Positions 874 to 32,699 of a stretch of 33,217 nucleotides of DNA are shown here, piece after piece (the first letter of the stretch is position 1; each line of letters opens with the position of its first letter). A program made the position numbers and the translations under genes. The DNA is from Spirochaetota bacterium (GTDB lineage: Bacteria; Spirochaetota; UBA4802; UB4802). The notes under the pieces are model-generated. The model was not told the origin of the DNA. It was given only the letters and a program-made list of their open reading frames with translations, and ran no database searches. The stretch covers positions 1 to 33,217 of the forward strand of contig JAOAIH010000031.1 in assembly GCA_026414805.1 (NCBI GenBank), written 5' to 3'.

Positions 874-884
874 GCGATAGCTCA
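874..884 (+). repeat. Iterated motif GCGATAGCTCA, exact copy
   Basis: Intergenic exact copy of the 11-base word, followed by T as in most copies and preceded by G (GGCGATAGCTCAT). It is one of six exact copies in the window. No hairpin surrounds it. Confidence 0.7.
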
Positions 885-942
885 TAGAATCAAGAATTAT
901 GTAAAAATAACTGTATGCCATAAAAAAGCAAAAAATTTTCTA

Positions 943-971
943 TTGACAATAAAAAGCTGAATTTCTATAGG
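943..971 (+). promoter_or_regulatory. Candidate sigma70-type promoter for the tRNA pair
   Basis: TTGACA (943-948), a 17-base spacer, then TATAGG (966-971). The predicted start would fall some 25 bases before the tRNA-Cys 5' end, suitable for a short precursor leader. The -35 is perfect and the -10 matches four of six consensus positions. Confidence 0.55.
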
Positions 972-1001
972 TGAATGTGTATATTATGTAATGAAATAAA
1001 C

Positions 1002-1074
1002 GGCGCCGTACCCAAGTGGCTAAGGGAGAGGTCTGCAAAACCTTTATTCAGCGGTTCGAATCCGCTCGGCGCCT
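1002..1074 (+). tRNA. tRNA-Cys (anticodon GCA)
   Basis: The acceptor stem GGCGCCG (1002-1008) pairs with CGGCGCC (1067-1073). The anticodon loop CTGCAAA contains GCA and is closed by GAGGT/ACCTT. The T arm is AGCGG-TTCGAAT-CCGCT. The discriminator base is T (1074), the base typical of tRNA-Cys. The 3' CCA is not encoded and must be added by nucleotidyltransferase. The gene lies three bases before tRNA-Leu, so both are probably processed from one transcript. Confidence 0.95.
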
Positions 1075-1077
1075 ATT

Positions 1078-1163
1078 GCCCAAGTGGTGGAACAGGTAGA
1101 CACAAGGGACTTAAAATCCCTTGGACTTCCAAGTCCGTGCCGGTTCAAGTCCGGCCTTGGGCA
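1078..1163 (+). tRNA. tRNA-Leu (anticodon TAA)
   Basis: Class II tRNA. The acceptor GCCCAAG (1078-1084) pairs with CTTGGGC (1156-1162), with discriminator A at 1163. The anticodon loop CTTAAAA gives TAA, reading UUA and UUG. A long variable arm, GGACTT paired with AAGTCC, is diagnostic of leucine or serine tRNAs, and the T arm is GCCGG-TTCAAGT-CCGGC. CCA is not encoded. A run of eight T follows directly (1166 onward), so the T arm and acceptor region plus U-tract may end transcription. Confidence 0.95.
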
Positions 1164-1179
1164 ATTTTTTTTATATTTA

Positions 1180-1521
1180 CTATCGCTTCCACTCTCTTTT
1201 TCTTATAAGAACATATAGACAAAATGGCACAATAACAATATCCAGCAACACATGAAAAAAGCTGAACGGATTTGCATGCATTAATATAAATCGAAGTATT
1301 CCCAGGATTCCACCAATCAAAGGCAGTAGTGCTGCAATCCATAGTGCCCACTGTTTTTCAATAACCAGCAGTATTCCAATTAAAAGATACGCAAGGCCAA
1401 ATAATGAGGCAGCAATAACGTGCCCATGATGCTCATAGACTATTAATTGGGTGAGATGTGTACAGCCTGAAATTATCAGCAGTATGCCCGCAGCAAGTGT
1501 TAATCGCTGATACAATGTCAT
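1180..1521 (-). CDS. Small four-helix integral membrane protein, function unknown
   Basis: 113-residue hydrophobic protein with about four membrane segments: LTLAAGILLIISG, AASLFGLAYLLIGILLVI, WALWIAALLPLIGGILGIL and VLLDIVIVPFCLYVLI. It ends in a basic RKREWKR tail, which by the positive-inside rule should be cytoplasmic. The reading frame is open upstream to 1590, but ATG at 1521 is preferred because GGGGGG sits about five bases upstream of it and the hydrophobic sequence begins right after it. The gene converges on the tRNA-Leu gene with only 16 bases between them. No catalytic motif is visible. It resembles generic DoxX-like or small transporter-like membrane proteins in layout only, so no function is assigned. 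Confidence 0.65.
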   Translation of the reverse strand: MTLYQRLTLAAGILLIISGCTHLTQLIVYEHHGHVIAASLFGLAYLLIGILLVIEKQWALWIAALLPLIGGILGILRFILMHANPFSFFHVLLDIVIVPFCLYVLIRKREWKR

Positions 1522-1866: not shown

Positions 1867-2628
1867 ATGACGAAACGACAATATATTTTTATAGTAATTT
1901 TAGTGCTTCTTATTGTGCTGGGCGGCATGCTAATTTGTTCTGGCAATGGCAAAACTGTAAAGCCAAAAGTTGCTCCGGTTGTGGAAGCAGTGTATGCACT
2001 GGGTATTGTCACTCCGTACAAAGAATATAACCTTCGTGTAGGGATGAATACAAAAATTGAACGTCTCTTTGTGTGGGAGGGTGACACAGTGAGTGCAGGC
2101 AACCCTCTAGTGCAGCTTGATGGCGGTATTCTACTGCGGGCACCATTTACAGGAACTATCGCCAAACTTAATAGTAAAGAAAATGAGATAATTACTGCCC
2201 AGAGTTCCATTATGACAATAGTTGATTCCAGTCATATGTATGTACGCCTTTCGCTTGATCAGGAATCCATTATACGTATAAAGAAAAAACAAAAAGCAAA
2301 AGTTAGTTTTGAGAATTTACGCGGTATTGACATTACCGGCTATGTGAGCCGCATTTACCCGTCAGACGGGGAATTTGTGGTGACAGTTGATGTTGATACA
2401 TTTCCTGCTGGGGTTCTTCCCTATATGACCTGTGATGTGGCAATAGTGGTGAGAGAAAAGGAAAACGCACTGCTTGTACCTCAGAGTGCTGTAAAGAACA
2501 ACATGCTGTATGTGGTAAGAAATGGAAAAAAAAGAAAGGTGGAAGTAACAACGCGCAACTATAAAGATGGCTTGGCTGAAGTGCTTGAAGGTGATGTGAA
2601 GGCCAGCGACAGCATTATTGTAAGGTAG
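1867..2628 (+). CDS. Periplasmic adaptor subunit (HlyD/MacA-type membrane fusion protein), short form
   Basis: Membrane fusion protein linking an inner-membrane ABC transporter to a TolC channel. After an N-terminal anchor (FIVILVLLIVLGGMLIC, about residues 8-24) come the two halves of a biotinyl/lipoyl-like domain, IERLFVWEGDTVSAGNPLVQLD and LLRAPFTGTIAKLN, then a beta-barrel part and a membrane-proximal part (ENALLVPQSAVKNNMLYVVRNGKKRKVEV). Only GG separates the lipoyl halves, so the long alpha-helical hairpin that contacts TolC in MacA, AcrA or HlyD is missing. At about 253 aa it is shorter than usual adaptors (350-400 aa). Start ATG at 1867 is chosen for the AGAGGGG ribosome site just upstream; a frame-open ATG at 1831 has none. 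It is the first gene of the exporter operon, five bases before the permease. Confidence 0.85.
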   Translation: MTKRQYIFIVILVLLIVLGGMLICSGNGKTVKPKVAPVVEAVYALGIVTPYKEYNLRVGMNTKIERLFVWEGDTVSAGNPLVQLDGGILLRAPFTGTIAKLNSKENEIITAQSSIMTIVDSSHMYVRLSLDQESIIRIKKKQKAKVSFENLRGIDITGYVSRIYPSDGEFVVTVDVDTFPAGVLPYMTCDVAIVVREKENALLVPQSAVKNNMLYVVRNGKKRKVEVTTRNYKDGLAEVLEGDVKASDSIIVR

Positions 2629-3860: not shown

Positions 3861-4558
3861 TGCTGGCTATTGAAGCACATAATGTGGTAAAAAAGTTTGG
3901 TGATTTCACTGCACTGAAATCAATAAACCTTGCCATTAACAAGGGTGAGTTTGTGGCTATTACCGGAAAATCAGGTTCGGGTAAGTCCACGTTGTTTTAT
4001 TCGTTGAGTGGCCTGGATGTGATTGATAGCGGCAATGTGTTTGTTTTAGGGAGTAATATCCACAGTTTGCCTGAAGAGGATTTACATGATTTTAGAAACA
4101 CTAAAATGGGCTTTGTGTTTCAGTTTCATTACCTTGTGTCTGAGTTAACAGGGCTTGAAAATATTCTGCTGCCTGCAAAGAAGAAAAATCTGCATACTAA
4201 AAAAAGGGAGTATGCCCTTTATCTTTTAGAGTATTTTGCGATAGCTCATTGTAAGGACAAATTGCCGTCACAGATGTCTGGTGGGGAGCGCCAGAGGGTT
4301 GCTGTTGCCCGCTCGCTCATCATGAACCCGGATATTATCTTTGCCGATGAGCCTACCGGCAATTTAGATTCAATCAACAGCGAGATAGTGATGAACATAT
4401 TCCGTGAGATAAATAAAAAAAACGGCACTACCGTTATTTTAATCACTCACGATGATGAATATGCTCATTTAGCTGACAGGGAAATTCATTTAAAGGATGG
4501 TGAAATTGAATATGATATGTGTTATAAAAAAAGTAAAGGTAGGTGGCAATGTACCTAA
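3860..4558 (+). CDS. ABC transporter ATP-binding protein, LolD/MacB type
   Basis: Cytoplasmic ATPase that powers the permease encoded just upstream. All ABC motifs are present: Walker A GKSGSGKST (about residues 37-45), Q-loop VFQFHYLVSELT, signature MSGGERQRVAVARSL, Walker B DIIFADEPTGNLD and switch histidine LITHDD. The FQFHYL version of the Q-loop and DEPTGNLD are characteristic of the LolD/MacB/FtsE subfamily. At 232 aa it is a standalone nucleotide-binding domain of usual size. Its ATG overlaps the permease stop by one base. A perfect GCGATAGCTCA copy lies inside it and encodes part of FAIAH. Confidence 0.93.
   Translation: MLAIEAHNVVKKFGDFTALKSINLAINKGEFVAITGKSGSGKSTLFYSLSGLDVIDSGNVFVLGSNIHSLPEEDLHDFRNTKMGFVFQFHYLVSELTGLENILLPAKKKNLHTKKREYALYLLEYFAIAHCKDKLPSQMSGGERQRVAVARSLIMNPDIIFADEPTGNLDSINSEIVMNIFREINKKNGTTVILITHDDEYAHLADREIHLKDGEIEYDMCYKKSKGRWQCT
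4238..4248 (+). repeat. Iterated motif GCGATAGCTCA, exact copy
   Basis: Exact copy inside the ATPase gene, read as codons for Ala-Ile-Ala-His and followed by T. The codons used are GCG, ATA and GCT, so the word is spelled out even though synonymous choices would break it. Confidence 0.7.
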
Positions 4559-5123: not shown

Positions 5124-6579
5124 TAAAACTACCATACTCCCAAAAAAGCTATTACATTTATTGTGTACTATGCTGGTAATTGTTGCAGCACAAGCAATCC
5201 ACAAGGTAGCTGCAGAGGAAATCATTTATGTAATTTCATACGAGCAGTTTTTGGAGGTTATTACACAAAAATTGCCCCAAATCAAGATTAATGCACTTAA
5301 GCTCAATAAAGCGTATAATGAAGTTGAAAAGGCAAAAAGTGTAGATGACACCAACCTGATTGCAAAAGGGCAATATGCACGGCAAAAACAATATACTACT
5401 GGTAAAAGCTTATTTGAACCGGATTATAAACAGTCATATTATGGATATACAGGTATAGAACAGACTGTGTCGTCTACCGGTACACGTCTGTCGCTGGGAC
5501 TTGAGTATAATGCTTCGTCCATAAAAGGCAATCTGACAATACCACCCCAGGCGTATTCCGTTGATGAATACAGGCCTTCAATTACCGCAACTATCACACA
5601 ACCGCTTTTACAAAATGCATTTGGTATCATTGACCGGTATGAAAAGAATAATGCAGCAATGAAACTTGAGATTCAGAAGCTTCAGCAGTTGGAGGATGAT
5701 AAATCGGTATTGAATTATTATAAAAAGATTTATTTTAACTGGATTTTATATTCACAAGCGCTTGCAATTATGAAGGAGAGTATTGCCAATGCACAGGAAC
5801 TGGTGGATTCCGTGCAACGGAAAGCAAAGGCTGGCCTTGCGGAAAATGATGATGTCCAGCGGGCACTGTCCTCGCTTTTAAGCTATCAGGCTCAGTATAA
5901 ACAATATGAAATAACCTATAAATCAATTTGTGATGAACTATCGCTCTATTTCAGCAACACAATAGCTCCTGATGCACAGGATTTAAAGAATATGTTTGAC
6001 ATTATACTTTCTGCCCACTATGATGAGGTACAGTTTGAGAAGACCCGCTCATTCCTTATTGTGAAAAAAAATATTGATATGATGCAATATTCAATAGATG
6101 TAGCTGATAACAGCACACTACCTCAGATGAACCTGATACTGTCGGCAACACGTAAAAACTACAATGACAGACAGCGTGAAGCATTGAGTACGTTGCCTGA
6201 TACCGATTATTCAGTTGGGGTTGAATTCAGTTATCCGCTGGGAAATCACAATGCACAGGCAAAGCTTACTGAATATGAGCTATCGCTTAAAGAGCTTGAA
6301 TATAACCTTTCAAGTACTCGGAATAGTTACTATAAATCATTGCGTTCAATATTACAGCAATTGAGTGGGTATAAAGAACTAATAGTGACTCATAATAAAA
6401 ATTTACAGGCTTTGCTATCTCAGCGACAGACAGAGCGGAAGAAATATGAACAAGCACGGCTTGATTTGCAATATTTAATTAATACAGAAAATAGTATTGC
6501 AATGGAGAAGCTTACACTGTTACAATTACAGGTGGCTTTGGTAGGGTATTATTTAGACTACAAAGACTTAACAGAATAG
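5101..6579 (+). CDS. TolC-family outer membrane factor
   Basis: Outer-membrane channel subunit expected to complete the tripartite exporter. A signal peptide (KKLLHLLCTMLVIVAAQAIHKVAA) precedes two related halves rich in long helices (KALKLNKAYNEVEKAKS; LKLEIQKLQQLEDDKSVLNYY; later ELSLKELEYNLSSTRNSYYKSL and RQTERKKYEQARLDLQYLINTEN). Short amphipathic strands between them would build the barrel (TGTRLSLGLEYNASS; TDYSVGVEFSYPLG). About 492 aa is usual for TolC homologues. ATG 5101 is preferred because AGAGGA lies five bases upstream; in-frame ATGs at 5080, 5098 and 5116 are alternatives. The start lies inside the lipoprotein gene, so translation is probably coupled. A GCGATAGCTCA copy lies on the opposite strand at 6276. 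Confidence 0.88.
   Translation: MKKAVMNNKTTILPKKLLHLLCTMLVIVAAQAIHKVAAEEIIYVISYEQFLEVITQKLPQIKINALKLNKAYNEVEKAKSVDDTNLIAKGQYARQKQYTTGKSLFEPDYKQSYYGYTGIEQTVSSTGTRLSLGLEYNASSIKGNLTIPPQAYSVDEYRPSITATITQPLLQNAFGIIDRYEKNNAAMKLEIQKLQQLEDDKSVLNYYKKIYFNWILYSQALAIMKESIANAQELVDSVQRKAKAGLAENDDVQRALSSLLSYQAQYKQYEITYKSICDELSLYFSNTIAPDAQDLKNMFDIILSAHYDEVQFEKTRSFLIVKKNIDMMQYSIDVADNSTLPQMNLILSATRKNYNDRQREALSTLPDTDYSVGVEFSYPLGNHNAQAKLTEYELSLKELEYNLSSTRNSYYKSLRSILQQLSGYKELIVTHNKNLQALLSQRQTERKKYEQARLDLQYLINTENSIAMEKLTLLQLQVALVGYYLDYKDLTE
6276..6286 (-). repeat. Iterated motif GCGATAGCTCA, exact copy on minus strand
   Basis: Reads TGAGCTATCGC on the plus strand inside the TolC-like gene, encoding part of YELSL. 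As in most copies, T follows the word when read 5' to 3' (GCGATAGCTCAT). Confidence 0.7.
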
Positions 6580-10972: not shown

Positions 10973-12559
10973 TCAAAAATTGCTGTCTCCTGGTGCAATA
11001 CAGTGGCGTACCACACGCCATATATGGTATCCTAACCTGTCAATGAACCTGATGGCTTCGATGTAATCTAGTGCCGTATGCGAGTCTAAAATCCCTGATG
11101 CTGTTTTTCTCAGCACTTCAACTCGCTCTAATTTTCGTGCATTTGCAAGGTATTGCGAAAGCTCCTGGATTTTTTCTACGCTGTCTATGGAACTCTGTGA
11201 TCGCAGAGCTTTTTCGGATTCATTTAATTCGTTATTAAAATTCCATTTCATATCAACAAAATTGTTACTGTCTTTTAGAAGAGCAATTGTGTCTGCTTCC
11301 TGACATGCTTCAATTATACTGCTTAAGTGATCAATAGCATGAAGAACCGAAATATGTTCATCATAGAGTTGCTTCTGTTGGGGTGGAGTTTTTACCTTGC
11401 TCATAAAGTGCTTTGTTTCTTCAAGTGCAACCATAGCGGTTTTAAGTCTGCGAGGCAGGTCGCTGCCATTTTTGTGCAAAAGATCCTTAAGTATTGCAAT
11501 TATGTAAAGAGCAATTTCCACCACGCTACGGCGTGCTGTTTCTACTGCTATGGCAGGTGTTTTTGCTATAGCATCGTCAAGATGCTGAGTGAGGTGCAGC
11601 GTTGTGTCGGCAAATAATGTTTTCAAAAATCGCACTAGCGGTGTGATGGCAGGGGTAAATAGAAACACGCCAATTACGTTAAAGAGTGTATGGAATACTG
11701 AAAGCTGAATTTCAGGAGCTATCGCCCCCATATAATGAAATAAAGATGATAATACGGGCGATAGCTGTGGCAGCATAATAAACAGTAGTAGTGCAGTTGC
11801 TGAGTTAAAAATGACATCGGCAACGATGATGCGCTTTGTGTCAGGTGTTGCTCCTATGGCAGCAACAAGTATTGGCACAGATTTACCTGCATTCATACCT
11901 ATAACAAGTGTCTGCGCTTGAAAGAGGGTGATTGTTTGACTGTGAAGCGCCACCAGTGCAAGTACAACAGCAGCGCTTGATGATTGCATTAAAATTGTTA
12001 ACGTAAAACCTATTATAAACAGAATCAGCATATCAGCAAATGATTGACCGGCAATAATTGAAAAATTGATTGTGCTGGGCAGTTGCGCAAGTCCCTGACG
12101 CATGATAGTAATGCCAAAGAAAAGAAGCCCAAACCCAGCTAAAAGCGAACCAATGTCTGAGCGGTGGTCGGTATATAGAATTTTTAATATGACACCACAC
12201 GCAACAAATAGCAGGGAAAACTGACCAATGCTGTACTGGATTCCAAAAAAAGTTACCAGCCAGGCAGTTGCAGTTGTTCCCACGTTAGCTCCAAAGATAA
12301 CTGCTAATGCCTGATGAATGGTGATAAGACCTGCGCTTACAAAACCTATTGTGGCAATAGCTGTTGCGCTGGATGCCTGAATAATGGTTGTGACAAATAT
12401 GCCCGTAAACAGAGCCTTGAGCTTGCCACCGGTGAGGTTTGACAGGATTTTCCTGAATCGGGGGCCAGCTAATTTCTGTATTGCTTCCGACATAAGGACA
12501 ATTCCTAAGAGAAGAATGCCTATGCCGCCTATTGCACTTATACTATCCTGTAGCATCAT
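10973..12559 (-). CDS. Na/Pi cotransporter family protein with PhoU-like C-terminal domain
   Basis: Membrane protein of the Na/Pi-cotransporter (NptA/PF02690) family, expected to move phosphate with sodium. It carries the internally repeated signature motifs typical of the family: first repeat GIFVTTIIQASSATAIATIGFVSAG with GANVGTTATAWLV, and second repeat LTILMQSSSAAVVLALVALHSQ with GMNAGKSVPILVAAIG. Residues 1-330 hold the helices. The remaining roughly 200 residues are helical and soluble-looking (VETARRSVVEIALYIIAILKDLL; LEETKHFMSKV), matching the PhoU-like regulatory domain that many bacterial members carry. 528 aa is typical. No ribosome site is obvious before ATG 12559 or the adjacent ATG 12556, so expression may be weak. 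The minus strand contains two GCGATAGC-core copies (11716-11725 and 11758-11766). Confidence 0.9.
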   Translation of the reverse strand: MMLQDSISAIGGIGILLLGIVLMSEAIQKLAGPRFRKILSNLTGGKLKALFTGIFVTTIIQASSATAIATIGFVSAGLITIHQALAVIFGANVGTTATAWLVTFFGIQYSIGQFSLLFVACGVILKILYTDHRSDIGSLLAGFGLLFFGITIMRQGLAQLPSTINFSIIAGQSFADMLILFIIGFTLTILMQSSSAAVVLALVALHSQTITLFQAQTLVIGMNAGKSVPILVAAIGATPDTKRIIVADVIFNSATALLLFIMLPQLSPVLSSLFHYMGAIAPEIQLSVFHTLFNVIGVFLFTPAITPLVRFLKTLFADTTLHLTQHLDDAIAKTPAIAVETARRSVVEIALYIIAILKDLLHKNGSDLPRRLKTAMVALEETKHFMSKVKTPPQQKQLYDEHISVLHAIDHLSSIIEACQEADTIALLKDSNNFVDMKWNFNNELNESEKALRSQSSIDSVEKIQELSQYLANARKLERVEVLRKTASGILDSHTALDYIEAIRFIDRLGYHIWRVVRHCIAPGDSNF

Positions 12560-13279: not shown

Positions 13280-14548
13280 ATGCGTTTTAATGTAACCCCA
13301 TCTAATTTACATGGTGAAGCTGTCATTCCCGGTTCAAAATCGCATACTATCCGGGCACTGGTATGTGCGTTGCTTGCTGATGGTACTTCAACTATTTTAC
13401 AACCGCTTGATTCAAGTGATACGCGCTCATGTCTTGGGATGATACGGCAATTTGGCGCAACTGTACAAGAACATGCCGATAAATGGATAGTAACTGGATG
13501 CGGCAGGCCACATGTTCCTGATGATGTCATTGATGTGGGTAATTCAGGTACTTCGCTGTACTTTGGCATTGGCGTTGCATCGCTAGTAAATGGTATAACA
13601 GTGTTTACCGGTGATCATCAAATTAGAAATCGTCCTGCTGGGGATTTACTCCATGCTATCAATGAATTGGGAGGATATGCAGTTTCAACCCGGGGTAATG
13701 GCAAACCGCCGGTAGTGGTGCAGGGCCCTATCAACGGAGGGCATGTGCAGCTGAAAGCCATTACATCGCAGTATCTATCATCTTTGCTTATAGCTACACC
13801 AATGGCTGCATACAACACAATCATTGATGTGCCGCTGCTCAACGAGGCTCCGTATGTGGGCATGACGTTGTGGTGGCTGGATAAATTGGGAATTGAATAC
13901 AGCAATAAAGGATATGATCAGTTTATTGTACGTGGCGGCCAGGTCTACAAGCCTTTTACACAATATATCCCAGCAGATTTTTCTTCTGCAACATTTTTCA
14001 TGGTTGCAGCAGCAATTACGCAAAGCACGGTGGTGCTCAAGGGTCTTGATTTTAATGACACACAGGGCGACAAAGAAGTGGTAAATATATTGCGAGCAAT
14101 GGGTGCAGAGGTTGAAATTTTTAAAGATGCTATCGCCATTACCGGGAAGCCATTAAAAGGCGGAACATTTGACCTCAATGCCATGCCTGATGCACTTCCG
14201 GCACTTTCAGTGTGTGCATGTTTTGCAGAAGGTGAGACGCGACTTGTAAATGTTCCGCAGGCACGCGTTAAGGAAACTGACCGTATTGCGGTGATGTGTG
14301 CTGAGCTTACAAAAATGGGTGCTAATATTGAAGAATTGCCCGACGGGCTTGTAATACGCAAAAGCACTTTGAGGGGAACACTTGTCAATGGCCACTATGA
14401 CCATAGGGTAGTGATGTCATTGGCTGTGGCAGGCCTTGCTGCAATGGGCACCACTGTAATAGATACTGCTGAGTCTGTTGGGGTTACTTTCCCAAATTTT
14501 GTTGAGCTGATGCAAAGCCTTGGTGCACAAATACGTACGGAGGAGTAA
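13280..14548 (+). CDS. aroA: 3-phosphoshikimate 1-carboxyvinyltransferase (EPSP synthase)
   Basis: Sixth step of the shikimate pathway: shikimate 3-phosphate plus phosphoenolpyruvate gives EPSP and phosphate, in the cytoplasm. Signatures are PGSKSHTIRALV (about 17-28), GNSGTSLYFGI, the RNRPAGDLLHAI loop, ITSQYLSSLLIA, RVKETDRIAVM and DHRVVMSLAVAG. Two inside-out alpha/beta domains are implied by full length, 422 aa. The upstream sequence AAGTGTGGAACA gives only a weak ribosome site for ATG 13280. The stop is two bases before aroH, and aroH's ribosome site lies in the last codons of aroA, so the two shikimate/aromatic genes form an operon. A GCTATCGC core copy is at 14129-14136. Confidence 0.97.
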   Translation: MRFNVTPSNLHGEAVIPGSKSHTIRALVCALLADGTSTILQPLDSSDTRSCLGMIRQFGATVQEHADKWIVTGCGRPHVPDDVIDVGNSGTSLYFGIGVASLVNGITVFTGDHQIRNRPAGDLLHAINELGGYAVSTRGNGKPPVVVQGPINGGHVQLKAITSQYLSSLLIATPMAAYNTIIDVPLLNEAPYVGMTLWWLDKLGIEYSNKGYDQFIVRGGQVYKPFTQYIPADFSSATFFMVAAAITQSTVVLKGLDFNDTQGDKEVVNILRAMGAEVEIFKDAIAITGKPLKGGTFDLNAMPDALPALSVCACFAEGETRLVNVPQARVKETDRIAVMCAELTKMGANIEELPDGLVIRKSTLRGTLVNGHYDHRVVMSLAVAGLAAMGTTVIDTAESVGVTFPNFVELMQSLGAQIRTEE

Positions 14549-14550
14549 AG

Positions 14551-14946
14551 GTGATCCGGGGAGTTCGCGGTGCAATTACTGTTGATGCAAATACAAAAGA
14601 AGAAATACTGCAAAGGACTGAAGAGCTTTTAAGGGCGATAGTTACTATAAATAAAATTCAGATTGATGATATAGCTTCAGCAATTTTCACAGTAACCGAC
14701 GATGTGAACGCAGAGTTCCCTGCTGTTGCTGCACGGAATTTAGGATGGTTGCATATACCGCTTTTATGTTCACGTGAGATTCCGGTTCCCGGCTCGCTTG
14801 GCATGTGTGTGCGTGTGTTGCTGCACATAAATACTGATAAAAGACAGGATGAAATTGTGCATGTATATTTACGGGATGCTAAAAAACTGCGCCCTGATAT
14901 TAATACGCCCTTACAGGATAAGTATTATACTTCGGATGATGACTGA
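14551..14946 (+). CDS. aroH: Chorismate mutase, AroH (trimeric, Bacillus-type)
   Basis: Converts chorismate to prephenate, the branch toward phenylalanine and tyrosine. The sequence follows the AroH fold: MIRGVRGAITVDANTKEEIL at the N-terminus with the conserved Arg near residue 6, TVTDDVNAEFPAVAARNLGW, REIPVPGSLGMCVRVLLHI containing the active-site arginine, and HVYLRDAKKLRPDI near the end. 131 aa is close to B. subtilis AroH (127). The start is GTG at 14551, with GGAGGAG upstream overlapping the end of aroA. It lies downstream of the EPSP-synthase gene, so both chorismate supply and use are encoded together although chorismate synthase is not in the window. Confidence 0.95.
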   Translation: MIRGVRGAITVDANTKEEILQRTEELLRAIVTINKIQIDDIASAIFTVTDDVNAEFPAVAARNLGWLHIPLLCSREIPVPGSLGMCVRVLLHINTDKRQDEIVHVYLRDAKKLRPDINTPLQDKYYTSDDD

Positions 14947-16751: not shown

Positions 16752-17260
16752 TAGAAAAACTGCATTCTGAGTTACAGCAATCTTTGCTTTCTTTGAAGGA
16801 ATTGCAACATCTTCTTTTCTTGCTTCAGTGTGGCGATAGCAACCGGCAGCCAGTTCCAGATGAATTAATCAATGAAGGATATATAATCGCAGATAACAAT
16901 CGCTTTATTCTCACCAATAAAGGCAAAGTATATAAAGACAGCTTATTACAAAAGTTAGCCTGCTTTTACGCTGCCAGCCAACAAGTCTTTGGGCAATATT
17001 TTGACAAAGAGCTATCGCCTTTAAAAAAAGAACTGCAAACAGTAAAAACACAATGGCGACATGCCCGTGATACAAAGTTAAAATATAAAAAAGCGCTGTT
17101 GAAGCAAGGCAAAGATACGGCAGCAGTAAAAAAAGATGCACTATACCGAAAACTTGAGAAGGAGCAGAATGCATTGTGCACACGTATGCGACATGTAGAA
17201 AAGCAATATAATAAAAAATTATCTGAATGTATCACAAAATTAGGTATAGTACATAAGTAA
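16748..17260 (+). CDS. Coiled-coil protein of unknown function, translationally coupled to thiS
   Basis: 170 residues, not recognised. The N-terminal third (LHSELQQSLLSLKELQHLLFLLQCGDS... DELINEGYIIADNNRFILTNKGKVYKD) looks like a small winged-helix-like or helix-strand module. The rest is strongly charged helix with heptad character (LKKELQTVKTQWRHARDTKLKYKKALLKQG and YRKLEKEQNALCTRMRHVEKQY). No signal peptide. Its ATG overlaps the thiS stop by four bases (ATGA), which indicates coupled translation. It contains two GCGATAGC-core words (16833-16840 and, on the minus strand, 17009-17018). Function cannot be inferred beyond the link to the sulfur carrier. Confidence 0.75.
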   Translation: MIEKLHSELQQSLLSLKELQHLLFLLQCGDSNRQPVPDELINEGYIIADNNRFILTNKGKVYKDSLLQKLACFYAASQQVFGQYFDKELSPLKKELQTVKTQWRHARDTKLKYKKALLKQGKDTAAVKKDALYRKLEKEQNALCTRMRHVEKQYNKKLSECITKLGIVHK

Positions 17261-17319: not shown

Positions 17320-18597
17320 ATGAAGAAAGCATATTTAGCATTTTGTGATATTGACGGAAATGTATATAAACACCCAAAGGTGGTAGCTGCTTTTAGACAA
17401 GGCAGGCGATTTGTGCCAGTGGATGAAAAAGAGCTCATCCCTATTCCTGATGGCAGTACACTCTACATGTTACCTCAGCGATATCCTGTGGACGGAAAAA
17501 AATTCAAAGCTATAACTCATTACAATGGCAATGAAATATGGGCTGTTGCAGCATTTTTAAGTTCTGGATATTTGCGCACTTATCTGCCGGCATATACGCG
17601 GAAGGATGGTGCACCAATACTTTCACTGTGGGCATATTGCGGACTAGTGTTTGTGGGGGATTCATTTTATGTGCCAGCGCTACGTATTGATCCTGATCCA
17701 CGCTCTGACCCTGCGCTACACCGAAATGACATTGAGCTTTTTAAAAAAATAAAAGCTATAAAGCAGCAGTACCCGCAAAACAGCTTGGTGCGCCAGCTTG
17801 CAAAATGTTCTACTGAATATGGTTGTTTGTGTGCTCGTAATTTTTTCTTAAGTCGATATGAAGCTCCACTGCCTACAACCAAATCGTGCAATGCTCTGTG
17901 CTTAGGGTGCTTTTCATTTCAAAAGGATACAGGTGTGCACGTTTCGCAGTACAGGCTCAACAGGGAACCTACTCCAGAAGAGATAGCCTGTGTTATGCTG
18001 CACCACATTGATCGCGTTGATAAAGCTATAGTAAGCTTTGGGCAGGGCTGTGAAGGTGAGCCGCTTTTGCGTGCAAAAGACCTGGCAAAGGCCATTGCAA
18101 TTGTAAGGAGCAAAACCACCAAGGGCACCATACATCTAAACACCAATGGATCATTACCACAGGCTCTCAAGCAGTGCATTGATGCAGGGCTTGATTCTGT
18201 GCGCATTAGTCTGAATTCACCAACGGAAAAGTATTATACCAGGTACTATCGCCCCAAAAATTATCACTTTAAAGATGTAATGCATAGTATTGAAGTTGCC
18301 TTGAAAGCAGGTATTTTTGTTTCAATTAATCTTTTCTTTTTGCCCGGTTTTACCGATGCCAAATCACAAGTTAGTGCTTTGTGTACTTTTCTTGACAACT
18401 ACCCTGTGAATATGATACAAACACGTAATCTCAATATTGACCCGGATTATTATCTTGATAGCATTGGCTTTGAAGATGAGGATGCAATTGGTGTACGACA
18501 ATTACTTGAGCTGTTGCGAAAACAGTATCCCATGTTAAAATTGGGATACTACAATCCGCCAAAGGAAGAATTTAAAACGATTGTAAATTTTGACTGA
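17320..18597 (+). CDS. Radical SAM protein with long N-terminal extension
   Basis: Radical S-adenosylmethionine enzyme of unknown product. The iron-sulfur cluster motif CxxxCxxC is at Cys190, Cys194 and Cys197 (TKSCNALCLGCFSFQ). The GEP-type SAM contact follows as GQGCEGEPLL, then strands GTIHLNTNGSLPQ and SVRISLNSPTEKYY and the TIM-barrel region to about residue 380. Unusually, some 189 residues precede the cluster motif and include CSTEYGCLCARNFF (three further cysteines), which might bind another cluster. FVPVDEKELIPIPDGSTLYMLPQR near the start has no known motif. AGAGAA precedes ATG 17320. The gene follows the thiS/coiled-coil pair by 59 bases and precedes the thioesterase gene. Confidence 0.85.
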   Translation: MKKAYLAFCDIDGNVYKHPKVVAAFRQGRRFVPVDEKELIPIPDGSTLYMLPQRYPVDGKKFKAITHYNGNEIWAVAAFLSSGYLRTYLPAYTRKDGAPILSLWAYCGLVFVGDSFYVPALRIDPDPRSDPALHRNDIELFKKIKAIKQQYPQNSLVRQLAKCSTEYGCLCARNFFLSRYEAPLPTTKSCNALCLGCFSFQKDTGVHVSQYRLNREPTPEEIACVMLHHIDRVDKAIVSFGQGCEGEPLLRAKDLAKAIAIVRSKTTKGTIHLNTNGSLPQALKQCIDAGLDSVRISLNSPTEKYYTRYYRPKNYHFKDVMHSIEVALKAGIFVSINLFFLPGFTDAKSQVSALCTFLDNYPVNMIQTRNLNIDPDYYLDSIGFEDEDAIGVRQLLELLRKQYPMLKLGYYNPPKEEFKTIVNFD

Positions 18598-20160: not shown

Positions 20161-20171
20161 GCGATAGCTCA
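20161..20171 (+). repeat. Iterated motif GCGATAGCTCA, exact copy
   Basis: Intergenic exact copy (GGCGATAGCTCAT) seven bases after the HD-GYP stop, in the convergent gap before the LysE gene. It has no inverted repeat or T-tract, so it is not part of a terminator. Confidence 0.7.
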
Positions 20172-20263
20172 TTTAAGAAATCCCTCTATGGCAATACAGA
20201 TACTGATGATAGTAACACAGATGCCCTCAAACCATGTAACTTGGAGTTTTTTTGATTATATGC

Positions 20264-21446: not shown

Positions 21447-22097
21447 ATGATTAAAATCTGTGCCATCAGTGATATCCACCGTGGATATAAAAATATATAT
21501 CGTCTGCAGCCTGAGATTGAATCCAGTGATATTGTTGTTATTGCTGGGGATTTGGCACCACTGAAATGGTATACACGCTGGGAACTGTATAAAAGAGCTA
21601 TCGCCCAGATAAATAAACCAATTTTGGCTGTTCATGGAAATTGGGATGGGAAAAAAATTCAGGAGTTTTTAGCACCGTATTCAATACATGCTGGTTTTGC
21701 GGTTGTTGAGGATGTAGGTTTTTTTGGTGTTGGCGGTTCAATAAAAACTCCATTGCACACACCGGTAGAATATTCCGAGGAAGAAATATATGAGTTTATG
21801 TGCAGAGGGTTTGAAAAGATACAGCATCAGCCGGTAAAAGTGTTGCTGTCGCATAACCCGCCAAAGAACGTGTGTGACAGGACTATTTTTAAGACTCATG
21901 CTGGCAGTGTGGCAATTGCTAAATTTTGCACTGAATATAATATTGATGTATGTATTTGCGGGCATATTCATGAAGCGCATGGTGTTGCACGGCTTGGGAA
22001 TACCACTGTAGTGAATGCAGGAGCGTTGAAAAGCGGATACTATGCATCAATTTGTGTGGCACGCAATGGGGTTGAAGCAGTCATAAAGCGCTTGTAA
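21447..22097 (+). CDS. Calcineurin-like metallophosphoesterase
   Basis: Two-metal phosphoesterase of the YfcE/MPP superfamily. The five blocks are intact: AISDIHRGY (Asp9, His11), VIAGDLAP, VHGNWDG, LLSHNPPK and CGHIHEAHG, followed by NAGAL. 216 aa is a bare catalytic domain without signal or membrane segments, so it is cytoplasmic; the substrate (nucleotide, phosphodiester or phosphoprotein) is unknown. No ribosome site precedes ATG 21447, but the DIH motif so near the N-terminus fixes the start. Curiously TATAAT (21441-21446) abuts the start codon. A GCGATAGCTC copy on the minus strand (21595-21604) overlaps the RAIAQ codons. Confidence 0.92.
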   Translation: MIKICAISDIHRGYKNIYRLQPEIESSDIVVIAGDLAPLKWYTRWELYKRAIAQINKPILAVHGNWDGKKIQEFLAPYSIHAGFAVVEDVGFFGVGGSIKTPLHTPVEYSEEEIYEFMCRGFEKIQHQPVKVLLSHNPPKNVCDRTIFKTHAGSVAIAKFCTEYNIDVCICGHIHEAHGVARLGNTTVVNAGALKSGYYASICVARNGVEAVIKRL

Positions 22098-23477: not shown

Positions 23478-26400
23478 ATGAAGAAAATGATAGTAACTAC
23501 ACTCTTGGTGCAATTATTTTTTCTTCACGCCTACTCTCAAACAATCGATAATCCTCAAGTAGTGGTACAACAGGGACATAGTGAATGGATAACATCCATG
23601 GCGGCTTCACCTGATGGCAGAATAATTGCATCCGCAAGCCTTGATGGAACAATAAAGCTTTGGGATGTTGCAAGCGGAAGATTGCTACGAACAATGGTTG
23701 GACATAGCGGTACTGTCGAAGCAATAGCATTTTCACCAGATGGGCGTACACTAGTGTCATGTGGTGCAGATAAAACAATCAAATGGTGGGAGGTTGAAAC
23801 TGGAAAGATTGTTATAAACATAGATACCGCAAGCTATATGAAAACTATAGCGTTTTCCCCTGACGGTAAAATGATTGCCACAGGCAGTGATGATGCAAAA
23901 GTAAAGATATGGGATTGGTCAACAGGAAAAGAAATAATCACATTTTTTGGGCACAGGGGGGACATTACATCAGTAGCTTTTTCTGTTGATAATAGATTTG
24001 TAGCTTCAGCAAGCAAAGATGGTACCATTAAATTGTGGGAAATTAGTACTGGAAAAATAGTACGAATATTTTCCGGACATACAGGTGATGTTACTTCTAT
24101 AGCGTTTTCGCCTAATGGCAGGATATTGGTATCAGGAAGCAGCGATACAACAGTGAAAGTATGGGATGTGATAACTCAACGGCTTATACATACTCTATCA
24201 GGCCATAAAGATTCTGTACTTTCAGTTTCATTTTCACAAGATGGTAAGTACATTGCTTCAGGAAGTGCTGATGAGTCCATTGCAATATGGGATTATGAAA
24301 CTGGCAGACTATCTGCAGTACTTAAAGGACACAGCAGTGTAGTGTCATCAGTTGTATTTTTACCACAGGGCAACTATCTGGTATCAGGTGCATGGGATAA
24401 CACAATAAAATTGTGGGATATAGTAAATAGCAGGGAAGTGAAAACTTTCTTGGCTACTGCGGATTGGATTTATTCGGTTGCTGTGTCACCCGATGGATTG
24501 TTTGTTGCGGCTGGTACCGATAGCAATGGCATCCAATTGTGGAATCTGTCAAAGGTTAATGATCTAAAAATACTTTCTGATCATAAAGGAAGCGTGTTTA
24601 CTGTTGCCATTTCACCTGATGGGAAAATGTTAGCTTCCGGCAGCTATGATAAAACGATAAAATTGTGGGAAATACCAGAAGGCAGGTTGCTTAAAACTTT
24701 CAAAGGACATACGGAAGCAGTCAATTGTATTAGATTTTCCCCTTGTGGTAATTATTTAGTATCAGGCAGCAGTGACGGGACAGTCAGGCTTTGGGATGTA
24801 AAGCGTGGTGTGTTAGTACATACGTTTAAAGGGCATGAAGGTGGGGTGGATGCAGTTGCATTCTCGCCTGATGGTACACTCATAGCATCTGGTGGATATG
24901 ATAAAACAATCAGGTTATGGCAGATAGCTACTAAAAAAGAATTATTAAAATTAACAGGTCATGAATTCAGAATACTATCATTGGCTTTTGCCCCCGATGG
25001 TAAATCATTGGTATCCGGCAGTAGCGATACTACTGTTCGATTGTGGAACGTGGCAAGTGGGCAGTGCATAAAAACGTTAAACCATAAAGGTATAGTGTAT
25101 TGTGTTGTATTTTCCAATGATGGCAAAACTATCATATCGGGGAGCTCTGATACCACAATAAAATTTTGGGATGTAAATACGTTTGCTGCAACAACATTAC
25201 TTACACATAATTACGTTATATCACTTGCAGTATCAAGGGATAATACGCATATAATTTCAGGTGGTAAGGATTGTAAGGTCAGAATTTGGGATGCTGGTAC
25301 TAAAAAAGAGATAGCTCAATGTATTGTAACTGCCAGCAGAGAATGGGCTGTTGTAACTCCTGATAACTATTATTTTTGCAATAAGGGCACGCTGAATTAC
25401 ATTCATTTTGTGAAAGGATTAAAAGTATTTTCGTTTGATCAGTTTGACCTGCAGTTCAATCGCCCCGACATTGTGCTGGAACGACTGGGAAAAGCATCTG
25501 GCAATTTGATTGTAGCATTCCGCACGGCATACGAAAAGCGACTGCGTAAAATGGGTTTTAATTTGTCTCAATTTGAAAAAATTTTTATATCCAATGCACC
25601 TCAGGTTGCAATTACAATGCCAGAAAGCGGCATTATTGAAACTGATAAACCATATTATGTAGTAAGGTTTAGAGCTCAGGATGATCTATATATGCTTGAG
25701 CGGATATTTGTTAAAGTTAATGGTGTTCCTCTTTATGGAGTCAAAGGAAAATTACTGGAAAACAAAAGTAAACTGGTACAACAAACATTGAGTATTCCAC
25801 TATCAGCCGGTAATAATGCAATTATGGTATCAGTTCTTAATGAAAAAGGTGTTGAATCACTTCCCCACACAATACATGTAAAGTATTCTCCACCAACCCC
25901 AATTAAGCCAAATTTATATATAGTAAGTATTGGAGTATCTAAATTTGTTCAGGCAGACTATAATCTGACGTATGCTGATAAGGATGCTAAGGATTTTGTA
26001 AAACTTTTTGAACAAAAAAAGGATAGGTATGGCACGATATACCAGTTTGTTGTTTTAAATGAAGATGCAACACGTGAAAGAATAGTACAGTTAAAGTCGG
26101 TATTGCTTAAAACTACTCCGGATGATCATGTAATTGTATTTGTTGCCTCTCACGGGCTTCTTGATGAAAATCTTGATTACTATATTGCTACTTATGATAT
26201 AGATTTTTCTAATCCTGGGGGTAAAGGATTACGGTATGACCAATTAGAAGAACTACTAGATGGAATACCATCTCGTAAAAAGGTGATGTTGATTGATGCT
26301 TGCCATTCAGGAGAATTAGACAGGGAAGATATGCAACTGATGAGTGCACAGGTTAAGACTGATAGCCATGTAAAATCACGTGGTTTTACCATAGTAAAGA

Positions 26401-27969: not shown

Positions 27970-29082
27970 ATGAAAAGGGGTTTGCTTATTATTGCAACGA
28001 TTATAGTTGCTATCGCTCTTATCCCTTATGGGGTTTTTGCTGCAGTACCACGCACCACATATCCAGTAGTATTTGCCCATGGTATGGCTGGATTTGATGA
28101 TATTTTGGGGTACGATTACTGGGGTAATGATTTTGGAGTATTTGTTGGTGATCCTTGTGATGAATTTTTAGAAGTAACCTGTAATGGAAATATCGATAGT
28201 GGCCAGAAATCCTTCGTGGCACAGGTGCAACCGTTCCACTCATCGGAATACCGCGGTACACAGCTTGCCAATCAGATTGAAAGCTATATGGCTACAAGTG
28301 GTGCACAATATGTTAATCTTGTAGGGCACTCACAGGGTGGACTTGACCTGCGTAAGGCTGCTAAGGTCCTGTATCAGCGAAAAGGGTATACTGTGGTAAA
28401 AGTTGCGCTTTCCATTTCTTCACCACATCGTGGTTCGCCGGTGGCAAAGTATATTCTGGATTTGGGACCGGGAGTAACAAGTGTTATAGCTGCACTTGCA
28501 ACTATTTATGGTAATGTTGTCTACAGGTCGGGCAATGATTGTTATGCAGCAGCCAAACAGATGGTATATAATGACTACAGCGCATCAGATGGCGTAACAA
28601 CTGGCATGAAGGTGTTCAATAACGCGTATCCTGTAAGCTCTACATACGCAGCACGCTATGTATCCATAATCACTGCACAGACAGGACTTGATGTAAATCC
28701 GGCACTATTTTTGTTGCGCAACGGCTTTTATAACATTGATGGTGATGGATATTGTACGGATGATTGTGACAATGATGGTGCAGCAGGTAAAGGAAATGGC
28801 ACGCGTACAGATCTTGATGATGACGGCCTTGTAGGTATAAATTCACAGCAAATGGGATACAGGTTAAAACTTAATGATGTATTTTTAGGACAGGATTATC
28901 TGACAACTGATACCGCACTGGGCTATGTTAGTAGCATAAATTATCCAAATAGTGCACAGATGACATCAACAAATGACATTGTAGTGCAGGACCATCTGGA
29001 TGTCATTGGTGTTGGTCCGGATATGTTTGATGAAATGGAGTTTTATGCAGCAGTGTTTGATTATATTGCCTACTATGATTGA
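27970..29082 (+). CDS. Secreted triacylglycerol lipase (family I, foldase-dependent type), paralogue 1
   Basis: Exported esterase releasing fatty acids from glycerides. After a signal peptide (GLLIIATIIVAIALIPYGVFA) comes TTYPVVFAHGMAGFDDILGYDYWG, the oxyanion-loop region of Pseudomonas/Burkholderia family I.1-I.2 lipases. The nucleophile elbow is GHSQGG with Ser121, followed by SISSPHRGSPVAKY. The catalytic Asp is in DDDGLVGINSQQMG (Asp285) and His in QDHLDVIG (His342). An Asp-rich stretch IDGDGYCTDDCDNDG (from about residue 257) looks like a calcium site with a cysteine pair; another pair is in GDPC and VTC near the N-terminus. 370 aa against about 285-320 in Pseudomonas/Burkholderia enzymes. 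Start ATG 27970 follows AAGGGGGC. A foldase gene lies 1.5 kb downstream. Confidence 0.93.
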   Translation: MKRGLLIIATIIVAIALIPYGVFAAVPRTTYPVVFAHGMAGFDDILGYDYWGNDFGVFVGDPCDEFLEVTCNGNIDSGQKSFVAQVQPFHSSEYRGTQLANQIESYMATSGAQYVNLVGHSQGGLDLRKAAKVLYQRKGYTVVKVALSISSPHRGSPVAKYILDLGPGVTSVIAALATIYGNVVYRSGNDCYAAAKQMVYNDYSASDGVTTGMKVFNNAYPVSSTYAARYVSIITAQTGLDVNPALFLLRNGFYNIDGDGYCTDDCDNDGAAGKGNGTRTDLDDDGLVGINSQQMGYRLKLNDVFLGQDYLTTDTALGYVSSINYPNSAQMTSTNDIVVQDHLDVIGVGPDMFDEMEFYAAVFDYIAYYD

Positions 29083-29188: not shown

Positions 29189-29211
29189 ACCGATTAGTCG
29201 GTATTAAATAT
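29180..29211. promoter_or_regulatory. Palindromic operator 2, TetR-family style
   Basis: 32-base inverted repeat with a single mismatched pair (29194/29197). The inner 18 bases, ATACCGATTAGTCGGTAT (29187-29204), are the cleaner version of operator 1. It ends 17 bases before the lipase 2 start codon. Confidence 0.8.
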
Positions 29212-29228
29212 ATTTAAAGGGGGTTGGC

Positions 29229-30341: not shown

Positions 30342-30414
30342 TGATGGATAACTATTTACATTGAATATGCTTTAAAATATAATACATATTCTTATAAATA
30401 TGAGCTTACTTTAT

Positions 30415-30449
30415 GGTCGTTGGGATTTTTTTACTCAACGGCCTTTTTT
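30415..30449 (+). terminator. Rho-independent terminator after lipase 2
   Basis: GGTCGTTG (30415-30422) pairs with CAACGGCC (30436-30443) including one G-T pair, with a 13-base loop, followed by TTTTTT. It lies about 75 bases after the stop. A second weaker stem CCCTTT/AAAGGG with a T-run follows at 30506-30536. Most of the 302-base gap before the foldase is otherwise featureless. Confidence 0.8.
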
Positions 30450-30583
30450 ATAAACAGTACTAATCTATATATATTTTAACAATATTCATTATTAGTATAT
30501 TGTTTCCCTTTTTCTAATTGGCTCAAAGGGTTTTTTATTTTTTGATCATAAAAAATGTCCTTGAAAAAAATCACTGTTGGCAA

Positions 30584-30623
30584 GATGATGTGGGCAGTAG
30601 GGTCAGAGCTCTAAAGCATCATC
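30584..30623 (+). promoter_or_regulatory. Leader hairpin just before the foldase gene
   Basis: GATGATG (30584-30590) and CATCATC (30617-30623) are exact inverted repeats separated by 26 bases, followed by TATTTTTATA and then the ribosome site AGGAG. The position in the leader suggests control of foldase expression, but the stem is only seven pairs and may be chance. Confidence 0.3.
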
Positions 30624-30643
30624 TATTTTTATAGGAGTAGCAC

Positions 30644-31678
30644 ATGAAAAAAAAATACTACTATGCTTTGATAGGTTTTATTGCGTTTATAGCAGTATAT
30701 CTTCTAATCTTCCATAAGGGTGATAATGTCCAATCGCGTATTGATTATATAAAGAATGGTGGCGTAGTACCACCGGTGAACATGTTGTTACAAGCTTTTC
30801 AAGCTGATGAAGAATTACGTGCCCGCCTTCAGGCTGATTTTGATATGCAGGATGTTGTTCAGTATTTCAGAGATAAATATGGCAAAACTATCCACCATAA
30901 ACATACACAGGTTATGCTGGTTGAAAAGCTTATGAGCTATTTAGTCAAAATGTATCCTGAGGATTGGGTTATATATTTATATGCAATGCTGCGTGAAATA
31001 TTCCCGGGAATGGAAAATGAAATATTTGATACATTTGAAAAATTATATAAGTATAATAAATGGTTGGAAGAAAACAAGAATGGCCTTGCCCAATTAAATT
31101 CTAAAGAAAAACGTGATGCGTTGTGGAAAAAACGGTATGAGATATTTGGTGAAGATGCAGAACAGGTGTGGGAAGCAGAAAAACGCAATGAGCCTATTTA
31201 TAATGCACTGGACACAATTAGTACAGGCAATATGAGTTTTGATGAAAAACTATCGCTTTATACTCAAAGTATACAGGAAGCATACAAAAACAATAGTAAC
31301 GATTTTGTTGCTCGCAAGCAGCAGGAATTGATGAATTCGTTTCTTGATATTGATAGTGTCCAGAAAGATCTTGCTGAAATGAGCCCGCAGAAGCGCAAGG
31401 AAAGTTTAAAAGAGTTACGAAAGGCTATGGGCCTTGACAATGCTGCATTACAGCGATGGGAAGAACTTGACCAGATACGTGACCAGCGCTGGGATGCAGG
31501 TATGCAGTACATGCAGCAGCGATCTGAACTTGAAAAAAAATATAAGGGAGCAGAGCTTGAAAAGCAACTTGACAGCTTGCGAATAAAATATTTTGGCAAT
31601 GAAGCGGAAACAATCAAAGCGGAAGAACAAAGTGGCTACTACAGGTTTACACAACAGCGCAAGTATGGGTTGGAATAA
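30644..31678 (+). CDS. lifO: Lipase-specific foldase (lipase chaperone, Lif/LifO family)
   Basis: Membrane-anchored steric chaperone that folds family I lipases in the periplasm. One N-terminal helix (YYYALIGFIAFIAVYLLIF, about 5-23) leaves the rest outside. The body is almost entirely helical, as in the Burkholderia foldase that wraps its lipase. KEKRDALWKKRYEIFGEDAEQVWEAE, the middle helices, MSPQKRKESLKELRKAMGLDNAALQRWEELDQIRDQRWDAGMQYM and LEKQLDSLRIKYFGNEAETIKAEE match the order and FG-E-A pattern of the family's extended helical domain. 344 aa is the usual size. The family hallmark RxxFDYxLSAxGE of the first mini-domain is not recognisable; ADFDMQDVVQYFRDKYGK is the nearest stretch. ATG 30644 follows AGGAG. 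It sits after its two presumed clients and overlaps the next gene. Confidence 0.82.
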   Translation: MKKKYYYALIGFIAFIAVYLLIFHKGDNVQSRIDYIKNGGVVPPVNMLLQAFQADEELRARLQADFDMQDVVQYFRDKYGKTIHHKHTQVMLVEKLMSYLVKMYPEDWVIYLYAMLREIFPGMENEIFDTFEKLYKYNKWLEENKNGLAQLNSKEKRDALWKKRYEIFGEDAEQVWEAEKRNEPIYNALDTISTGNMSFDEKLSLYTQSIQEAYKNNSNDFVARKQQELMNSFLDIDSVQKDLAEMSPQKRKESLKELRKAMGLDNAALQRWEELDQIRDQRWDAGMQYMQQRSELEKKYKGAELEKQLDSLRIKYFGNEAETIKAEEQSGYYRFTQQRKYGLE

Positions 31679-32699
31679 AATATTCATTATACCTTTCAGT
31701 GCTCTGTGCATTTGCCTTTCAGTTCAGTGTAACAGCAAAAAGGTTGTGGAATATGGTGTGTTTGCACCTTCACGACTTGCGTATGTGAAGGGTCAGGATG
31801 GCTGTACGCCAATTGACTTTGACAAGCAGTATACTATGTGGACATTTGGTGATACCATTACTGATGACGGAATGATTTCCAACAGCCTTGCATTCACACA
31901 AAAAGTTACTACACACAATGTGGCACAATTGCAATTTTCCTATTACCAGGAAAGAGGAAAGATTGTGCAATTTATAAAAAATGAAGCAGGTGAGGATCCG
32001 GCCAGGGACAGATTGTGGGCATTTGATGGCATTCGTATAGGCGATACCGTGTATGTGTACTTTGCTCATGTATATATACACGACGCTGCTGCACCATTGT
32101 CATTCACAATGAAGGAAAGTTCACTTGCGTATTGGAAGGTGCCATTCAAATGGCAGATTGGCAACAAAATACAATTTATCCGCAAAAAAAACATGTTTAC
32201 AGGCAATGTACCTGCATTTGGTGCTTCAGTACTTGAAAGTGGCAACTTTGTATATGTTGTTGGGCACATCAGTGAAAAAAACAAAAGCGGGATTGTGATT
32301 GCAAGGGTTGACAAAAATAGTATCATAGATCAAAGTCAATATGAATTTTTACAGGGCGATAGTAACTGGAACAATAGACTTGATTCTGCAATTAGATTAT
32401 ATGGTGATGTCGCTGGCGAATGTTCTCTGTCGTATGACGATGGGTTACAGTCATTCTGTATGGTGTATTGCCAGCTTTTCACTGGCAATATAATAGTGTG
32501 CATGTCAAAAACAGTGGAAGGATTGCCCACTGCACAAAAGTACACAGTATATATGCCACCCCGATTACAGGGAAGTAGCATGATGTATTATTCAGCAAAG
32601 GCGATAGCTCATGATAGTAATCAATGGTATATTGTATATATGAATCCAATGGACTATCAGCCATATCTAATTAAGGTTGATGTTGAAAAATATTTTTAA
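31665..32699 (+). CDS. Predicted lipoprotein, DUF4185-like beta-propeller
   Basis: About 344 residues. The N-terminus GWNKIFIIPFSALCICLSVQCNSKK looks like a lipoprotein signal with Cys21 as lipidation site; SVQC is a loose lipobox. The remainder is beta-rich with the repeat style of five-bladed propellers of the DUF4185/glycosidase-like group: VKGQDGCTPIDFDKQYTMWTFGDTITDDG, DRLWAFDGIRIGDTVYVYFAHVY, GASVLESGNFVYVVGHISEKNKSGIVIARVD, ECSLSYDDGLQSFCMVYCQLF and AKAIAHDSNQWYIVYMNP. The FGDT and DG elements resemble the first blade of DUF4185 proteins. The start at 31665 overlaps the foldase end by 14 bases, so it is co-translated. An ATG at 31593 in frame would lie far inside the foldase gene. Its role with the lipases is unknown. 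Confidence 0.75.
   Translation: MGWNKIFIIPFSALCICLSVQCNSKKVVEYGVFAPSRLAYVKGQDGCTPIDFDKQYTMWTFGDTITDDGMISNSLAFTQKVTTHNVAQLQFSYYQERGKIVQFIKNEAGEDPARDRLWAFDGIRIGDTVYVYFAHVYIHDAAAPLSFTMKESSLAYWKVPFKWQIGNKIQFIRKKNMFTGNVPAFGASVLESGNFVYVVGHISEKNKSGIVIARVDKNSIIDQSQYEFLQGDSNWNNRLDSAIRLYGDVAGECSLSYDDGLQSFCMVYCQLFTGNIIVCMSKTVEGLPTAQKYTVYMPPRLQGSSMMYYSAKAIAHDSNQWYIVYMNPMDYQPYLIKVDVEKYF
32601..32611 (+). repeat. Iterated motif GCGATAGCTCA, exact copy
   Basis: Exact copy (GGCGATAGCTCAT) within the DUF4185-like gene, read as Ala-Ile-Ala-His, the same frame and codons as the copy in the ABC ATPase gene although the proteins are unrelated. Confidence 0.7.

Follow-up and report, generated by a model that had tools for sequence, protein, structure and literature searches.

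The window analyzed here, a 33,217-nucleotide stretch that is contig 31 (JAOAIH010000031.1) of the Spirochaetota bacterium genome G000, contains an iterated word, the 11-mer GCGATAGCTCA, with copies both inside genes and between them. The source assembly comprises 3.24 Mb in 186 contigs and is 95.6% complete; protein searches gave as nearest named relatives two metagenome-assembled genomes (85-87% identity), one of a Spirochaetota bacterium and the other of an uncultured bacterium. The six exact 11-mers reported in a preliminary description of this DNA were all found again at the same positions (Table 1; the minus-strand copy occupies 6276-6286), and T follows five of the six, as had been claimed. 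A third-order Markov model predicts only 0.013 copies of the 11-mer in the window. When up to one mismatch was allowed, 12 copies were found, compared with 0.35±0.66 in dinucleotide shuffles. The shorter forms were also as numerous as described: the 8-mer GCGATAGC occurs 14 times (0.8 expected under the same model) and GCGATAG 23 times (2.95 expected).

The exact 11-mer occurs 211 times in the whole 3.24-Mb genome (99 forward and 112 reverse), and the same word read backwards, used as a control, does not occur at all. Thus, the copies are neither at expectation nor limited to the window, the two outcomes that the preliminary description had named as speaking against its proposal; the excess above the Markov expectation is hundreds-fold. 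The existence of a genome-wide signal is near certain, and we judge the view that the word is iterated throughout the genome and probably recognized by something to be right.

To define the word, we used a position weight matrix (PWM) built from 1.22 Mb of G000, taken in stretches as a sample that favors large contigs. The resulting motif, ~tttggGCGATAGYTMMTG..AAA, holds 18.2 bits over roughly 20 positions and is asymmetric, its core extending to TMMT with AT-rich flanks (T-rich before the core, A-rich at +15 to +17). GATAG is nearly fixed (96-100% invariant), C or T stands at position 7 and A or C at position 9, and strong conservation is confined to about -6 to +18 around copies. Positions 7 and 9 are interdependent (C with C, T with A), which indicates linked alleles CTCAT, CTCCT and TTACT. 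The 11-mer is the commonest allele in this species, and GCGATAGTTACT, GCGATAGTTCCT and GCGATAGCTCCT belong to the same motif set; the preliminary description had caught one dialect only, and its ten-base forms represent further variants of the one motif, CTCCT at 11716 and CTCTT at both 17009 and 21595. The share of C at position 7 is 0.56 in G000 compared with 0.18-0.31 in four other members of the genus (0.18 in G003). At an estimated 5% false positives, 724 sites were found in the 1.22 Mb of G000. The excess density is 0.56/kb in G000, 0.53/kb in G002 and 0.56/kb in G003, which represent three species, and extrapolation from the sample, with its preference for large contigs, suggests approximately 1,800 copies per genome. 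Among 9-mer cores, 373 are perfect (356 above background) and 774 carry a single mismatch (362 above background).

Exact counts of GCGATAGYTMMT in 393 Spirochaetota genomes revealed 346-514 copies in each of the five genomes sampled from one genus of uncultured spirochaetes (G000-G004) and at most 11, the level of the reversed control, in the other 388. The only other sampled genus of the family, represented by a 71% complete genome, is without the word. The preliminary description had proposed examining related genomes, and copies are indeed kept at orthologous places. When orthologous copies were compared at ~75% nucleotide identity, core positions 0-6 and 8 were identical in ~81-96% and flanks in ~73%, and position 7 was identical in only ~70% because species swap C and T at one orthologous site. 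Further, some orthologous partners are near-misses by a single substitution, and the flanks of different copies are mutually unrelated. This exchange of letters in place, together with the near-miss partners, indicates that point mutation both creates copies and alters them, that copies are then kept, and that they are not inserted elements. Mobile elements therefore fail to explain the copies, as had been suggested: unlike interspersed mobile repeats such as repetitive extragenic palindromes (REP), miniature inverted-repeat transposable elements (MITE) and insertion sequences (IS), neither a longer unit of strong conservation nor inverted repeats surround the copies.

The density of GCGATAGYTM is 0.250/kb in coding and 0.413/kb in intergenic DNA, that is, 1.65 times higher between genes. 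Relative to genes, 135 copies are sense and 135 antisense. They occur in all usable reading frames, the single frame that puts TAG in frame being avoided, and show no preference along genes (quintiles flat) or among intergenic classes. Protein constraint, which the preliminary description had discounted, thus does not account for copies found on both strands, in all usable frames and also between genes. GC skew is strong, tracks gene strand and flips inside contig 1, where it turns from negative to positive (about +0.11) near 70 kb (G000:C1, L004); this contig therefore probably spans the replication origin or terminus. There was no replication polarity of the motif, with 313 copies lying with the GC-skew leading strand and 322 against it. 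Spacing is more even than random (variance/mean per 10 kb, 0.70; coefficient of variation of gaps, 0.93 vs 0.99±0.03 simulated). The three longest gaps are shorter than 8 kb, and the two that were inspected contain ordinary genes.

Neighboring copies tend to lie in opposite orientation. The same-orientation fraction is 0.358 in G000 (z -7.6), 0.351 in G002 (z -4.4) and 0.368 in G001/G003/G004 (z -4.0). Four other words served as controls in twelve tests; of these, only the test of GCTATAG in G002 (52 neighbors) gave a fraction clearly below one half (z -2.2), and the remaining fractions were near or above one half. Pair correlation placed same-orientation pairs at ~0.65 of expectation out to ~2 kb, with recovery by 3-4 kb, and opposite-orientation pairs mostly at ~0.85-1.45 without overall depletion. 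Across all samples, 622 of the 1,567 pairs within 2.5 kb have the same orientation, compared with 783.5±19.4 under random orientation (5,000 permutations, minimum 721). The effect is larger for stronger motifs: the ratio of same to opposite is 0.73 for weak pairs but 0.27 when the strongest copies lie within 2 kb of each other. In 10-kb segments, the strand imbalance amounts to about one third of the random value. The depletion is seen both inside and outside genes, and also among copies of different dialect classes. A bias toward gene ends or gene strand was rejected as the cause of alternation, since permuting orientation relative to genes gave 353.5±13 same-orientation neighbors, compared with 253 observed, and quintiles were flat; terminator-like inverted pairs were likewise rejected, since pairs within 60 bp were not in excess (the strict pattern gave 4). 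Because only same-orientation pairs are depleted, a copy seems to have a directional effect that extends ~2 kb. Most simply, the copies of each orientation would form an independent, regularly spaced set, each copy acting to one side or on one strand over ~2 kb, so that a second in the same sense would be redundant. This orientation-specific spacing is a new property and is not a described property of uptake sequences.

At a PWM score of at least 10, the window contains 29 sites, 20 of which are listed in Table 1. No candidate reader protein was seen among its genes. As judged by eye, the frame at 23421-26729 encodes a protein of 1,102 aa that combines many WD40-type repeats with a caspase-like domain at its C-terminus, and 27970-30341 holds two tandem paralogous lipase-like genes, apparently secreted, of 370 aa each.

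Table 1. Copies of the motif in the window, with aligned copies in loci L021 and L022 (ORF, open reading frame; functions marked "like" were assigned by eye).
Sequence	Position	Strand	Score	Context	Detected as	Aligned copies
GCGATAGCTCAT	874..885	+	24.3	left of first confident gene	exact 11-mer + PWM	
GCGATAGTAAAT	1175..1186	-	17.9	outside any confident gene	PWM	
GCGATAGTTCCT	2151..2162	-	26.5	antisense in ORF 1831-2628	PWM	
GCGATAGCTCAT	4238..4249	+	22.0	sense in ABC-transporter ATPase gene 3860-4558	exact 11-mer + PWM	
GCGATAGTTCAT	5933..5944	-	16.6	antisense in ORF 5080-6579	PWM	
GCGATAGCTCAT	6275..6286	-	18.1	antisense in ORF 5080-6579	exact 11-mer + PWM	
GCGATAGCTCAA	6980..6991	+	16.2	sense in ORF 6590-7477 (alpha/beta hydrolase-like)	exact 11-mer + PWM	
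GCGATAGCTCCT	11714..11725	-	26.7	sense in ORF 10973-12559 (Na/Pi cotransporter-like)	PWM	GCGATAGTTCCT (L021)
GCGATAGCTGTG	11758..11769	+	16.1	44 bp from 11714..11725 copy, opposite orientation	PWM	GCGATAGTTGTG (L021)
GCGATAGCATCT	14125..14136	-	18.5	antisense in ORF 13280-14548 (aroA-like)	PWM	
GCGATAGTTACT	14635..14646	+	24.0	in ORF 14551-14946	PWM	identical (L021, L022)
GCGATAGCAACC	16833..16844	+	17.9	in ORF 16748-17260	PWM	
GCGATAGCTCTT	17007..17018	-	20.5	antisense in ORF 16748-17260	PWM	GCGATAGTTCAT (L022), GCAATAGCTCAT (L021)
GCGATAGTACCT	18241..18252	-	25.6	antisense in ORF 17320-18597	PWM	
GCGATAGCTCAT	20161..20172	+	23.6	intergenic between convergent ORFs	exact 11-mer	GCGATAGCTCAT (L021), GCGATAGTTTAT (L022)
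GCGATAGCTCTT	21593..21604	-	20.6	antisense in ORF 21447-22097	PWM	GCGATAGTTCTC (L022), GCGATAGTACCT (L021)
CAGATAGCTACT	24921..24932	+	19.7	in ORF 23421-26729	PWM	
GCGATAGCAACT	28005..28016	-	17.8	antisense in ORF 27970-29082	PWM	
GCGATAGTAACT	32356..32367	+	19.8	in ORF 31593-32699	PWM	
GCGATAGCTCAT	32601..32612	+	20.2	in ORF 31593-32699	exact 11-mer + PWM	

Other iterated words were also observed. GGGGTCAGAGC/GCTCTGACCCC has 15 copies in the 1.22-Mb sample of G000 (0.08 expected), and the 10-mer GCTCTGACCC is found 8-9 times in the samples of 140-150 kb from G003 and G004 (L114-L128); this second word may belong to a transposase-associated repeat family. Further, GTCATTGCGAGG occurs 6 times in 140 kb of G004 (L122-L128; expected 0.00) and looks like part of a longer interspersed repeat.

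Competence genes were searched for, as the preliminary description had suggested: ComEC was found in G001-G004, four of the five members of the genus, as in almost all of the sampled phylum, and no type IV pilus ATPase was found. G000 carries a complete type II secretion operon (L182, G000:C5:58001-75961, at about 5789-17844), identified as gspC-D-E-F-G-H-I-J-K-L-M-N by order and size; it adjoins an IspH-like gene and encodes the only pseudopilus found in the genus. G002 lacks both the type II secretion genes and the neighboring ispH homologue. Because ispH is normally essential, this most likely reflects an assembly gap rather than a true loss. The PilO model matched nothing in the whole sampled phylum, and regular-expression searches of partial DNA for ComEA, DprA, ComM and RecA returned no match, RecA included, so that these searches are uninformative.

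We tentatively favor the reading that the motif is a signal for the recognition of self DNA, akin to an uptake sequence and read directionally. The site, degenerate and asymmetric, would mark the genus's own DNA, and DNA bearing it would be preferentially taken up and recombined, so that copies born by mutation could spread and be kept. The reader protein, which we infer to be directional, would work one way from the site; one copy would then serve ~2 kb on one side, and a nearby second copy in the same orientation would add little. We prefer this reading because density, absence of strand bias, intergenic preference, regularity, AT-rich flanks, dialects and mutational origin all fit described uptake sequences. 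To our knowledge, verified uptake sequences come from two proteobacterial families, and we found no description of uptake sequences or of such a word in spirochaetes in the open-licence literature. Like the uptake signal sequence (USS) of Pasteurellaceae (AAGTGCGGT), the motif has an asymmetric core with AT-rich flanks and lies near one copy per kb on both strands without orientation bias; it is also more regular than random, denser between genes, divided into clade dialects and of mutational origin. It differs in word and phylum and, perhaps, in spacing, its same-orientation neighbors being depleted over ~2 kb. The DNA uptake sequence (DUS) of Neisseriaceae (ATGCCGTCTGAA) shares genome-wide iteration, dialects and the lack of strand bias with the spirochaete motif but, unlike it, is without flanking motifs; its reader is the minor pilin ComP. 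Both USS and DUS occur at close to one per kb, and Pasteurellaceae USS consist of a core with AT-rich flanks (PMC1626085).

Several results weigh against an uptake signal. The consensus is looser than those of USS and DUS, perfect and mismatched cores being about equal in excess, whereas perfect copies outnumber mismatched ones in the H. influenzae-type USS (PMC1626085). The orientation-specific spacing is not predicted by known, orientation-independent uptake, and uptake by H. influenzae is unaffected by USS orientation (PMC1939737). ComEC was not found in G000 (95.6% complete), and its nearly phylum-wide occurrence means that its presence does not discriminate. Further, ATPases of the PilB, PilT and Tad types were not detected, and in each genus genome PF00437 matched in full only GspE of the type II secretion operon; no type IV pilin was found beyond the pseudopilins of that system; and the 1.22 Mb examined revealed no foreign island free of the motif. 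The comparison with uptake sequences made in the preliminary description is relevant and may hold, with the undetected ATPase and the undescribed spacing on the other side.

It is possible, if doubtful, that the motif is instead an asymmetric self-DNA mark of a new class, with balanced, independently regular sets on both strands and no replication polarity, distinct both from pilus-type uptake sequences and from polar Chi; its directional reader would then use each orientation separately over ~2 kb. The main rival of the favored reading, given less credence than it, is a Chi-like, non-polar site, at which RecBCD or another helicase-nuclease tracking from a DNA end would read one strand, halt degradation and start recombination. 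Since breaks have two ends, each orientation would be needed every few kb, as two independent regular sets. Directional reading would explain, without extra assumptions, why same-orientation pairs are depleted to ~2 kb and opposite ones unaffected, and a pilus is unnecessary. Like Chi (GCTGGTGG and others), the motif is asymmetric and abundant, its spacing points to directional action, and RecC (PF04257), the one RecBCD subunit searched for, was found in every one of the five genus members. However, most other members of the order also have RecC and none of them has the word. Known Chi sites have 5-8 nt, whereas the motif is longer (~18 bits spread across about 20 positions, AT-rich flanks included) and more degenerate, and its excess, hundreds-fold over Markov expectation, is much higher. 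Leading-strand polarity, a hallmark of E. coli Chi, is absent (313 vs 322). Such polarity has been used as a defining criterion (PMC8022716). The earlier comparison with Chi is therefore relevant, but a polar Chi is unsupported.

A site for an intracellular chromosome-organizing or translocase-loading protein with polarity, unrelated to DNA exchange, seems unlikely. It would suit a motif that is evenly spaced, loose in consensus and insensitive to gene context, but the copy number is far above that of matS, SlmA, Noc and parS sites, which number tens, replication-strand polarity is absent, and the dialect changes within one genus. FtsK-orienting polar sequences (KOPS), with which the word had also been compared, are likewise short, iterated and asymmetric but are polar from origin to terminus; with 313 copies on one side and 322 on the other, this comparison is unsupported. 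Much less probable is a word kept by an orphan methyltransferase or other modification, like the highly iterated palindrome HIP1 of cyanobacteria (GCGATCGC). GCGATAGC differs from HIP1 by one letter, sharing seven of eight core letters, and both occur genome-wide, within and between genes. In contrast to the palindrome, the conserved region is asymmetric with position-dependent extensions, reaching TMMT and the A-rich positions +15 to +17, and simple methylation gives no reason for kilobase-scale, orientation-specific spacing; the HIP1 comparison is thus unsupported. We consider it more improbable still that direct repeats delete the DNA between them, leaving a spacing without functional meaning. 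This would limit depletion to close direct repeats, as observed, but copies of different dialect classes are as depleted as those of the same class (same:opposite, 100:228 vs 49:113), and the stretch that two copies share is usually just 8-11 bp of 13. Nothing was found in favor of chance, composition or protein constraint, which is refuted by the reversed control (0 vs 211) and by copies that occupy either strand, every usable frame and intergenic DNA.

The test of orientation-specific spacing is general and applicable to the signals of H. influenzae, Neisseria and E. coli, where it would reveal whether directional action has shaped them. If the motif is Chi-like, it would represent a strong, non-polar Chi, and the spacing a way to find such sites from sequence alone. 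If it is an uptake sequence, as we tentatively favor, it would indicate self-specific DNA exchange in a spirochaete genus without a recognizable type IV pilus, and the receptor must be new.

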